From: Alphaproteobacteria bacterium
GTDB lineage: Bacteria > Pseudomonadota > Alphaproteobacteria > Thalassobaculales > Thalassobaculaceae
Reading direction: 5' to 3'
Assembly: GCA_024742275.1 (NCBI GenBank)
Contig: JANSYS010000007.1
Span: 62,001-126,000 of the forward strand
Length of the DNA: 64,000 bases
Of the stretch, positions 57,938-63,320 are shown in pieces (the stretch's first letter is position 1; each line of letters opens with the position of its first letter). Position numbers and translations under genes: made by a program. Under the pieces are notes generated by a model, which was not told the origin of the DNA, made no database searches, and worked only from the letters and a program-made list of their open reading frames with translations.

Positions 57938-58014
57938 GTCCTCGTAGCTCAGCTGGATAGAGCACCAGATTCCTAATCTGGGGGTCACAGGTTCGAATCC
58001 TGTCGGGGACACCA
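57938..58014 (+). tRNA. tRNA-Arg(CCT)
   Basis: A 77-nt cloverleaf. The acceptor arm GTCCTCG pairs with CGGGGAC (one G-U type pair), the anticodon stem CCAGA/TCTGG encloses loop TTCCTAA (anticodon CCT), and the T loop is TTCGAAT. The CCA end is encoded. A spurious open frame runs antisense through it. Confidence 0.97.
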
Positions 58015-58470
58015 TTCCGACTTCGGGAGGCACACGCGAAGTGCCTCTGATGGTTTCATCCGACGACAGCGGCCGCCGACACTCTCCCCGTAGATGCGGA
58101 CGGACCGACATCGGGTCTCACCGCCAGAACGACGGCGGACTCGTACCGTTGCGCGCCGGCGTCCCGATCAAGCCTGCGAGTCGTCGCCCATGGCGCGGCA
58201 GCTCCCGAAAAGCAGATCGGCGCAGCGCCATTCAGCCGGCAGATCCACAGCATTCTGTCGCCAAGCCGCCCATGAACCACCGATAATTTTAGATCTTATC
58301 TGTTATGCGCACTAAAAATTCGATGGCGGAGGGGTCTGGATTTGTTAACGATCCGTTAACCATTCGGCCTCAGCATCCTTGTTCAAGTAGAGTCAAATCC
58401 CTTAGCCGGCCGCCGCGACGCGGCGCCGGGAGCAGTCCTCATAAAGACCAAGCGGATACGGAGCGGATCG
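58015..58470 (+). other. Intergenic region, 456 nt
   Basis: Spacer from tRNA-Arg(CCT) to the PAS gene. No credible gene and no integrase or direct repeat of the tRNA 3' end was seen. The second half is AT-rich (near 58275-58320) and contains a perfect CtrA box at 58345-58363. Confidence 0.6.
58345..58363 (+). promoter_or_regulatory. CtrA binding site, full consensus
   Basis: TTAA-N7-TTAACCAT, an exact match to the Caulobacter-type CtrA full-site consensus, with a 7-nt spacer (CGATCCG). It lies 108 nt before the start of the PAS gene, in the right place to act on its promoter. CtrA is the cell-cycle and motility response regulator of Alphaproteobacteria. Confidence 0.75.
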
Positions 58471-59094
58471 GTGCCACTTGCGAGCAGTATGGAGCTGGTT
58501 TCCGCGTCGGGTCGAGAGCCGGAGGGATTTTGCGCCGAACTGTTCGATCATTGGCGCGAGCTGTCAGACCAGTCGCCCGCTGCCGACGGCATTCCCGTCC
58601 GGCACCAGATCGATATGCTCACGCTGCCGGTTCGGGTCCTGCCCTGGTTCTTTCTGCATGAGTGCGTCGGACACCGCTATCGCAGTCTGATTGCCAGTAC
58701 ACGGGTCGCCGAAAGCCTCGGCTTCGAGCCGAAAGGCAGGTTCATCGACGAGCTCATGCCGCCGGAAATCTACGCGTCCCGGCGCGACATGTTCGATGTC
58801 TGCCTTCGGAACAGCCGGTCGGTCTTCTATCGCGGCGCCTTCAGCAAGCCGATGGATCGCTATATCGGCTACTGCCGGCTGCTGCTGCCGCTTCACCGCG
58901 AACCGGCAGGTCCGGTGGATATGCTCTGCGGCCTGATGATGTTTTTCGAGAAAGGCGATCTCAATGCCCGCGACCGCCGCTGGATCGAGAACGGTTTCAG
59001 CGGGCTGTTCGATTGTCTGATGTTCGACTCCGGAAACTGGCGCGACTGGCGACCGGATCCGACGGAGCAGCCCTCCGATCAGCCTGCCGCCTGA
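58471..59094 (+). CDS. PAS_5-type protein with upstream CtrA box
   Basis: A 207-aa soluble protein built around one PAS-like domain. Visible features are HQIDMLTLPVRVLPWFFLHEC, the YRSLIASTRVAESLGFEPKGRFIDELM stretch (core YRSLIASTRVAESLG) and GYCRLLLPLHRE followed by MLCGLMMFFE. No output domain. It begins with GTG behind GGAGCGGATCG; an ATG 18 nt further in is possible. The CtrA site upstream suggests a cell-cycle or motility-linked sensor. It is related in type to the protein at 17812-18321 but only distantly in sequence. Confidence 0.72.
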   Translation: MPLASSMELVSASGREPEGFCAELFDHWRELSDQSPAADGIPVRHQIDMLTLPVRVLPWFFLHECVGHRYRSLIASTRVAESLGFEPKGRFIDELMPPEIYASRRDMFDVCLRNSRSVFYRGAFSKPMDRYIGYCRLLLPLHREPAGPVDMLCGLMMFFEKGDLNARDRRWIENGFSGLFDCLMFDSGNWRDWRPDPTEQPSDQPAA

Positions 59095-61964: not shown

Positions 61965-63320
61965 ATGAAGATCGGCATCGTCAAGGAACGCCGAGAGGGC
62001 GAGAAACGCGTCGCAGCCTCTGCGGACACAGTTAAAAAATACTTACAGCTCGGCGCTGAAGTCGTGATCGAGTCCGGCGCGGGTGTCTCCGCCGCCGTTA
62101 CCGATGACGCGTACAGCGCGGCAGGCGCCAAGATCGTGAAGACCGCAAAGGAAGCGATCGGCAACGCCGATGTGGTCTTGAAGGTCCGCAAGCCGCTCGA
62201 AGACGAGATCGCGCTGCTCAAGACCGGTGCGCTGCTGATCTCGTTGATAGAGCCTCACAAGGATAAAGCAATCGTCGAGGCCCTGGCGAAGAAAGGCGTT
62301 CGCACCTTCGCGCTGGAGCTGGTCCCCAGGATCACCCGCGCCCAGTCCATGGACGTTCTGTCATCCCAATCGAACCTCGCCGGATATAAGGCCGTTCTGG
62401 ACGCGGCCGCCGTGTTTGGACGAGCCTTCCCGATGATGATGACCGCCGCCGGGACCGTCCCGCCGGCACGCTGCCTGGTGATGGGTGCCGGCGTCGCCGG
62501 TCTGCAGGCGATCGCCACGGCCCGCCGCCTCGGCGCCATCGTCTCGGCGACCGACGTTCGACCGGCCGCCAAGGAGCAGGTGGAGAGCCTGGGCGGCACG
62601 TTCGTCGCCGTCGAGGACGAGGAATTCAAACAAGCCGAAACCGCGGGCGGCTACGCGAAGGAGATGAGCGACGCCTACAAGAAGAAGCAGGCCGCGCTTA
62701 TCGCCGAAACCATCGCCAAGCAGGACATCGTCATCACCACCGCCCTGATCCCGGGACGTCCGGCCCCGGTGCTGGTCACCGAGGACATGGTGAAGACCAT
62801 GAAGCCCGGTTCGGTGATCGTCGACCTGGCGGTCGAGATGGGCGGGAACTGCCCGCTCTCGAAGCCGGGCGAGATCGTCGAGGCACATGGCGTCGCCATA
62901 GTCGGCCATACCAACGTCCCGAGCCGTCTCGCTGTCGATGCGAGCGCGCTCTACGCCAAGAACCTGCTGAACTTCCTCACGCCGCTTGTCGATAAGGAGA
63001 GCAAGACCCTCAAGATCGACGAGGACGATGAAATCATCAAGGCGTCGACCATCACCAAGGGCGGCGAGATCACAAACGAGCAGATCAAGGCGTTGAAGGA
63101 CGAGCCCACCGCAAAGCAGCCGACCGCGACCAAACCGGCGCCGGCCAAGGCGGAAAAGGCGAAACCCGCCGCCAGGAAGTCACCGGCAAAGAAGCCGGCT
63201 GCCAGCAAGACCGTCGCTGCGAAATCCGACGGTTCGAAGGCCGCCGCTCCGAAAGCATCCGAAACCAAGCCGGACGCGGCGCCGGGAGCCGAAAGCTCCG
63301 ACGGCGACGCGAAGGCATAA
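61965..63320 (+). CDS. pntAA: NAD(P) transhydrogenase subunit alpha part 1 with Lys/Ala-rich tail
   Basis: The NAD(H)-binding domain I of the proton-translocating transhydrogenase (split PntA). It contains [42 protein letters not shown] and the NAD fold [22 protein letters not shown]; the mobile loop region follows GGYAKEMSD. Family proteins of the split type are about 380-400 aa. Here the conserved part ends near residue 380 and a 72-residue tail rich in Lys, Ala and Pro (AKKPAASK-like, histone H1-like) continues to 451. The tail looks intrinsically disordered. It is the first gene of pntAA-pntAB-pntB, and the start has a GGGGACCC leader upstream. Confidence 0.94.

Follow-up and report, generated by a model that had tools for sequence, protein, structure and literature searches.

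The CtrA regulon of Caulobacter, Hyphomonas and other Alphaproteobacteria is the described system closest to the locus treated here, a box that matches the CtrA consensus and lies upstream of a gene for a small PAS protein in a 64-kb window (the whole stretch of 64,000 nucleotides (nt) that was analysed, positions 62,001 to 126,000 of contig JANSYS010000007.1) of an alphaproteobacterial genome. The published CtrA motif is TTAA-N7-TTAA(C), and chromatin immunoprecipitation sequencing of CtrA in Hyphomonas gave the same consensus. In full Caulobacter sites the 5' base is most commonly found near -35, and at -39 in the case of ctrA P2. This background, as well as that on MopJ given below, is drawn from excerpts of PMC4432633, PMC9275681, PMC2877005, PMC9437464, PMC7200025, PMC4046655 and PMC4287350. 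The locus shares with the CtrA regulon the exact motif, its placement before a coding sequence, a spacing compatible with activation and a genome encoding both CtrA and a ChpT-type phosphotransferase, but the target is a lone PAS_5-type gene and the site is a predicted one.

The closest relative in terms of protein type is MopJ (CCNA_00999) of Caulobacter. According to the excerpts cited, MopJ promotes CtrA (re-)accumulation, interacts with DivJ, is produced in S-phase along with CtrA, controlled by GcrA and (p)ppGpp, and has single-domain orthologues in other Alphaproteobacteria. With MopJ, a link between CtrA and a lone PAS_5 protein is already on record. The PAS protein of the window is similar to MopJ in having a single PAS_5-type domain without an output domain and a gene that appears tied to the CtrA circuit, whereas the CtrA box on its gene, its length (207 as compared to 165 amino acids) and its weak family match set it apart. 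In the open-licence literature we found no report of a CtrA box on, or CtrA control of, a lone PAS_5 gene and met no functional work on PAS_5 proteins besides MopJ; the combination of PF07310 and PAS gave 0 results there. Short LOV/PAS sensor proteins also consist of a lone domain of PAS fold, and the best fold matches of the PAS protein are LOV/PAS chains, but these matches are weak (TM-score on the query of about 0.4).

We read the box as a functional CtrA site, namely as the upstream half of a promoter from which CtrA activates the PAS gene, a reading to which we give a probability of about 0.65. A perfect box is found at an almost constant distance ahead of this gene in four related marine bacteria. 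The gene is therefore likely to be a genuine and so far unstudied part of the programme of CtrA, which regulates motility and cell division in Alphaproteobacteria; for a case made by computation, its membership of the regulon is well supported. The elements concerned are as follows.

58471-59094, + strand: gene for a 207-amino acid single-domain PAS_5-type protein with a GTG start, assigned by a borderline PAS_5 match and a predicted PAS fold.
58344-58360, + strand: strict CtrA-type box GTTAACGATCCGTTAAC, an exact match, with a strict box in all four Thalassobaculum orthologues.
58371-58378, + strand: conserved -10-like block CAGCATCC, columns +26 to +33 from the first T of the box, four of the eight invariant.
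58384, + strand: predicted transcription start, placed by setting the 5' base of the box at -39 (Caulobacter full-site rule, with ctrA P2 as the example).
58460-58465, + strand: ribosome-binding site GGAGCG, of which GGAGC at -11 to -7 is invariant in the four orthologues.

The motif scan of the window located TTAACGATCCGTTAACCAT at 58345-58363 on the + strand without mismatches, and this is the one exact TTAA-N7-TTAAC place in the 64 kb. The window has a GC content of 66.0%, so TTAA-N7-TTAAC sites are rare by composition; window shuffles gave 0.30 expected sites even with one mismatch allowed. The box has the form GTTAAC-N5-GTTAAC and therefore matches on both strands. Counted from the T that closes CCAT (58363), 107 nt separate it from the GTG at 58471; counted from the C that closes TTAAC, the figure is 110 nt. 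The initial annotation, which had placed a full-match box 108 nt ahead of a PAS gene in a 456-nt spacer following tRNA-Arg, was thus right within counting as to the distance, and also right about the box and about the spacer, which extends from the tRNA end (58014) to the gene start.

Conservation was examined in four full-size members of the genus, namely the window's own genome and the genomes G002, G003 and G004; the window's genome is placed in the same genus as G002 and G003, and from related contigs we infer that this genus is Thalassobaculum. A search based on the orthologue alignment led to contigs of Thalassobaculum litoreum DSM 18839, of a Thalassobaculaceae metagenome genome and of a more distant one. 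Among 61 genomes searched for homologues, ten gave a match at E 1e-8 or better. The four genus members harbor a clear orthologue, with identities of 49-52% in local alignments and 46-49% across the aligned protein, and the other six weaker homologues of 28-35% identity. A profile search of 36 genomes of the order at E 1e-25 returned six, the same four together with G010 and G019, which scored about 290 bits lower. Two genomes listed under the same genus (G001 and G005) are only 1.5 Mb in size, as compared to 4.7-5.6 Mb for the other members, and gave no match to the PAS protein.

All four orthologues possess a strict box upstream on the sense strand: TTAACGATCCGTTAAC in the window's genome, TTAACCATCTGTTAAC in G003, TTAAGGAGTCGTTAAC in G004 and TTAACGAGTCGTTAAC in G002. 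The box ends 110 nt before the start codon in the window's genome (GTG) and 107 nt before it in G003 (GTG), G004 (TTG) and G002 (TTG). When the four regions are aligned on the box, 12 of 17 columns are invariant within it and 7 of 19 in the next stretch, as compared to 5 of 99 ahead of the box and 5 of 71 in the remainder downstream; in this remainder the compared sequences differ in length by 3 nt. With the start codon as the anchor, invariant columns number 18 of 110, including the GGAGC of the ribosome-binding site. The 60 nt preceding the box show a pairwise identity of 20-53%, and a strict site arose in 0.02 to 0.045% of trials with shuffled 330-nt upstream regions. As the four genomes are related, their boxes are not independent draws; it is the contrast with the diverged flanks that matters.

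The position of the box fits this reading as well. GTTAAC-N5-GTTAAC would be occupied by phosphorylated CtrA across the -35 region (about -39 to -24), and RNA polymerase would be recruited to a start near 58384, leaving about 87 nt of untranslated leader. The block at 58371-58378, which reads AAGGATGC, AAGGATAC and AAAGATGC in the orthologues, would then fall at -13 to -6, the place of a -10 element, and by analogy with the Caulobacter sites this spacing supports an activating site. Synthesis of the PAS protein would coincide with CtrA activity and with the expression of chemoreceptor and signalling genes. As no output domain was seen in the protein, it would have to work through a binding partner; if MopJ is a guide, its most likely role is to adjust a kinase or some other partner within the motility/CtrA circuit.

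The regulator itself is encoded in the window's genome, a point on which the regulon assignment of the initial annotation depended. Compared with a Caulobacter CtrA sequence entered by hand, the local CtrA shows 73% identity over its length and 80% within the DNA-binding domain; over the receiver domain its closest solved chain is CtrA 4qpj. The ChpT-type gene heads a run of cheW, receiver, cheB and cheR genes adjoining ctrA, and a ChpT-type phosphotransferase is encoded in all three relatives too. On the contig concerned (C83) a perfect box is present just upstream of the chpT/che run (L064:10801-11412 and L064:11461-11476); considered as a positive control, it holds in the window's genome only. 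The same contig carries, on the opposite strand, a one-mismatch CtrA-type site at L064:6891-6906, 46 nt before the likely ctrA start (L064:6953), which might serve ctrA autoregulation.

The assignment of the 207-amino acid product to the PAS proteins, already proposed by the initial annotation, is supported. Its PAS_5 (PF07310) score is borderline: 21.5 bits, where Pfam sets the cut-off at 22, and 22.2 bits in the whole-genome search, where it ranks 30th of 31 by score. The orthologues are at or above the cut-off in the genome profile search (G003, 22.7; G004, 39; G002, 38.2 bits), and a second scan of two of them gave 22.0 bits (L084) and 37.8 bits (L085). The structure predicted from seven sequences (mean pLDDT 84.5) has a PAS fold, and its best solved neighbours, the LOV/PAS domains mentioned above, include one match with E <0.001. 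A sequence search for a solved relative gave no match, no second or output domain was seen in the product, and inspection by eye revealed no LOV flavin-binding cysteine motif. The GTG start is backed by the orthologues, which have GTG, TTG and TTG behind the same GGAGC block.

Two further features of the region are relevant to its organisation and to the alternatives discussed below.

57938-58014, + strand: tRNA-Arg(CCT), the upstream neighbour and a synteny marker outside the unit, also found near the PAS pair in T. litoreum (L062).
58390-58394, + strand: GANTC (CcrM-type) site GAGTC downstream of the box, position not conserved.

The gene order in T. litoreum is aminotransferase, CBS gene, tRNA-Arg(CCT), DUF1206 gene, PAS paralogue, box, PAS gene and GST gene. 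PAS paralogues precede the gene in all three relatives (two in G003, one each in G002 and G004). The window's genome has none here, and for this reason its box is located in the spacer after the tRNA. Since the box of the relatives lies between codirectional genes, it belongs to the PAS gene. A promoter serving the tRNA or the CBS side was considered and rejected, as in three relatives the box is situated between the PAS gene and the codirectional PAS paralogue. A scan of the spacer for RNA elements returned the tRNA alone at its gathering score. Upstream of the tandem PAS paralogues of G003 and G004 there are one-mismatch CtrA-type boxes (L063:1099-1114 and L061:7778-7805), and none in G002.

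To place the box in a wider context, strict TTAAN7TTAAC sites were collected from the four genomes, giving 12 distinct places in G002, five in G003, nine in G004 and 11 in the window's genome, of which six are outside AT-rich contigs and five in loci of 22-29% GC. Of the 26 places in the three relatives, ten are located before chemoreceptor, other signalling or PAS genes, given here as a plain count. Four of the ten precede genes for chemoreceptors that have an MCP signal domain (L129 and L134 in G002; L103 and L131 in G004), of which L131 and L134 look like the same receptor. Of the other six, one lies before a gene for a PAS-GGDEF-EAL protein (G003), one before a protoglobin gene (G004), three before the PAS gene itself (one in each relative) and one between two weak PAS genes (G002). 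With CtrA encoded, the box kept in all four orthologues and other strict boxes before chemoreceptor and signalling genes, the proposal that the PAS gene is a member of the CtrA regulon is supported. The published precedent of MopJ had been missed by the initial annotation, and the results speak neither for nor against its further suggestion that the PAS protein may be a sensor of division or motility state.

Several results weigh against a working CtrA site. In the window's genome the reversed control motif outnumbers the strict box (23 as compared to 12 strand hits, AT-rich contigs included), as it does in G003 (15 as compared to 7), and it is rarer than the box in G002 (2 as compared to 19) and G004 (6 as compared to 12). 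For TTAAN7TTAA without the C, box and control counts are 51/82 in the window's genome, 27/16 in G002, 17/17 in G003 and 24/21 in G004. Genome-wide enrichment of the box is thus not a feature of every member. For the other 16 of the 26 places in the relatives, the flanks, which were partly scanned, showed no gene recognised as a signalling or PAS gene; the neighbour of secA (in all three relatives) and pentapeptide, DUF4347, PRC-barrel and unknown genes are found there. A simple sigma-70 pattern scan revealed no promoter at the box. The CCAT extension reads TTAACTTT in G003 and G004 and TTAACCTT in G002, so that the complete consensus claimed at first, although present with CCAT in the window's genome, does not extend to the other three. 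The check for the same box before orthologues gave four out of four within the genus, and none of the 12 homologue loci outside it (L029-L034, L039-L041, L045, L047 and L086), which may not be orthologues, has a box even at one mismatch. The box at the chpT/che run lacks a counterpart within one mismatch in the 3.6-kb loci of the three relatives. Finally, a strict box is located close upstream of only two of the 31 PAS_5 stretches in the window's genome.

The control counts bear most directly on the explanation that the box arose by chance or was inherited without selection as an AT-rich spot of a GC-rich genome. Chance TTAA-N7-TTAA sites do occur, and the reversed control is as frequent or more so in the window's genome and G003. 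Chance alone would nevertheless have to account for a strict box at 107-110 nt in all four orthologues behind strongly diverged sequence and for the clustering of invariant columns in the box, which makes this explanation highly improbable. The site could also be bound by a different response regulator that recognises a similar 11-bp direct repeat. Direct repeats are typical of the OmpR family, and at least five other regulators of the window's genome match CtrA nearly full length at 31-36% identity. We regard this as quite unlikely, given that TTAA-N7-TTAA(C) is the published CtrA motif, that the local CtrA has a DNA-binding domain close to that of Caulobacter, and that CenR, the sole other alphaproteobacterial motif compared, recognises TGA-N8-TGA.

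If CtrA does bind, it might repress the gene, or only tune a promoter that is driven otherwise, for example by GcrA with CcrM methylation. GcrA and a RAMA domain, which we take to be part of CcrM, are encoded in all four genomes. GANTC occurs inside the seven-base box spacer in G002 and G004 (G002:C26:163579-163595 and G004:C1:2078949-2078965), near the start codon in G003 and downstream of the box in the window's genome. Methylation control of the PAS gene is possible; with GANTC in the box spacer of two genomes and elsewhere in the other two, it is not indicated by conservation. In the excerpts cited, mopJ of Caulobacter is driven by GcrA and repression by CtrA is possible when it is sited over a -10, but full palindromic Caulobacter sites are most commonly located at -35, with activation. 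The conserved block at the spacing expected of a -10 element for an activating site and the shifting GANTC position also argue against this explanation, which we consider unlikely. Another possibility is that the PAS gene is the MopJ orthologue of the genus and that the box shows MopJ itself to be under CtrA control here. Both products are lone PAS_5-type proteins, yet the PAS protein ranks low among the PAS_5 matches of its own genome. The strongest match, at C61:276394, covers positions 1-136 of 137 in a frame of 169 amino acids, nearer to the 165 of MopJ. This orthology is very unlikely.

The preferred reading, activation by CtrA, invites a wider proposal, which we consider unlikely: that control of the lone PAS_5 gene is the best-kept strict CtrA target in Thalassobaculum, that CtrA switches on a MopJ-like protein feeding back on the CtrA/chemotaxis machinery, and that the large PAS_5 complement, of 31 to 44 stretches in each genome, supplies alternative inputs to it. 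Judged by flanking genes, the PAS gene is the only strict-box target common to the window's genome (six host-type sites) and G003 (five sites), and it is present with a strict box in all four genomes. A transcriptional feedback loop of this kind is not described for MopJ in the excerpts cited. Within the large PAS_5 family the box marks out one protein as worth studying first. The site is present in a named strain, T. litoreum DSM 18839, on contig NZ_FNBW01000008.1, and a simple question is opened, namely whether CtrA drives a lone PAS protein that feeds back on CtrA.

The numbers of PAS_5 stretches are 31 in the window's genome, 39 in G002, 44 in G003 and 41 in G004, and control of PAS_5 genes by CtrA in general is not supported, in view of the two boxed stretches among the 31. 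Among ten other PAS_5 loci of the window's genome (L001-L008, L018 and L038), a strict box before the gene was found in L018 (C32) alone, and the one-mismatch matches in L002 and L008 are more than 300 nt from the gene match. The C32 box (L065:10714-10729) is situated between a BLUF blue-light gene and the PAS_5 gene, in a locus of 51% GC where the PAS frame has a GC3 of 0.33. This PAS_5 gene looks horizontally acquired, and because the box lies in an AT-richer stretch beside the BLUF gene, it may be due to chance. No box was found in four other PAS_5 loci of the same genus (L043, L044, L046 and L048), of which L046 ends 108 nt beyond the match. In G002, a strict site at C29:152086 lies between two weak PAS genes, both below cut-off (18.2 bits for PAS_5 and 19.8 bits for PAS_4), and a TTAAN7TTAA without the C at C12:105741 lies between two PAS_5 genes; both sites point towards general control.

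The AT-rich loci among the sites of the window's genome (L009 and L011-L014, on contigs C4, C8 and C15) have a GC content of 22-29% in a bin whose window is 66% GC, and the three contigs are probably contamination. A strict site beside secA was not recognised in the site list of the window's genome. In G002, G003 and G004 a second strict box is kept beside secA (L050:703-718, L051:1502-1517 and L055:1502-1517), and the one in L050 ends five bases before the ATG of an unknown gene.
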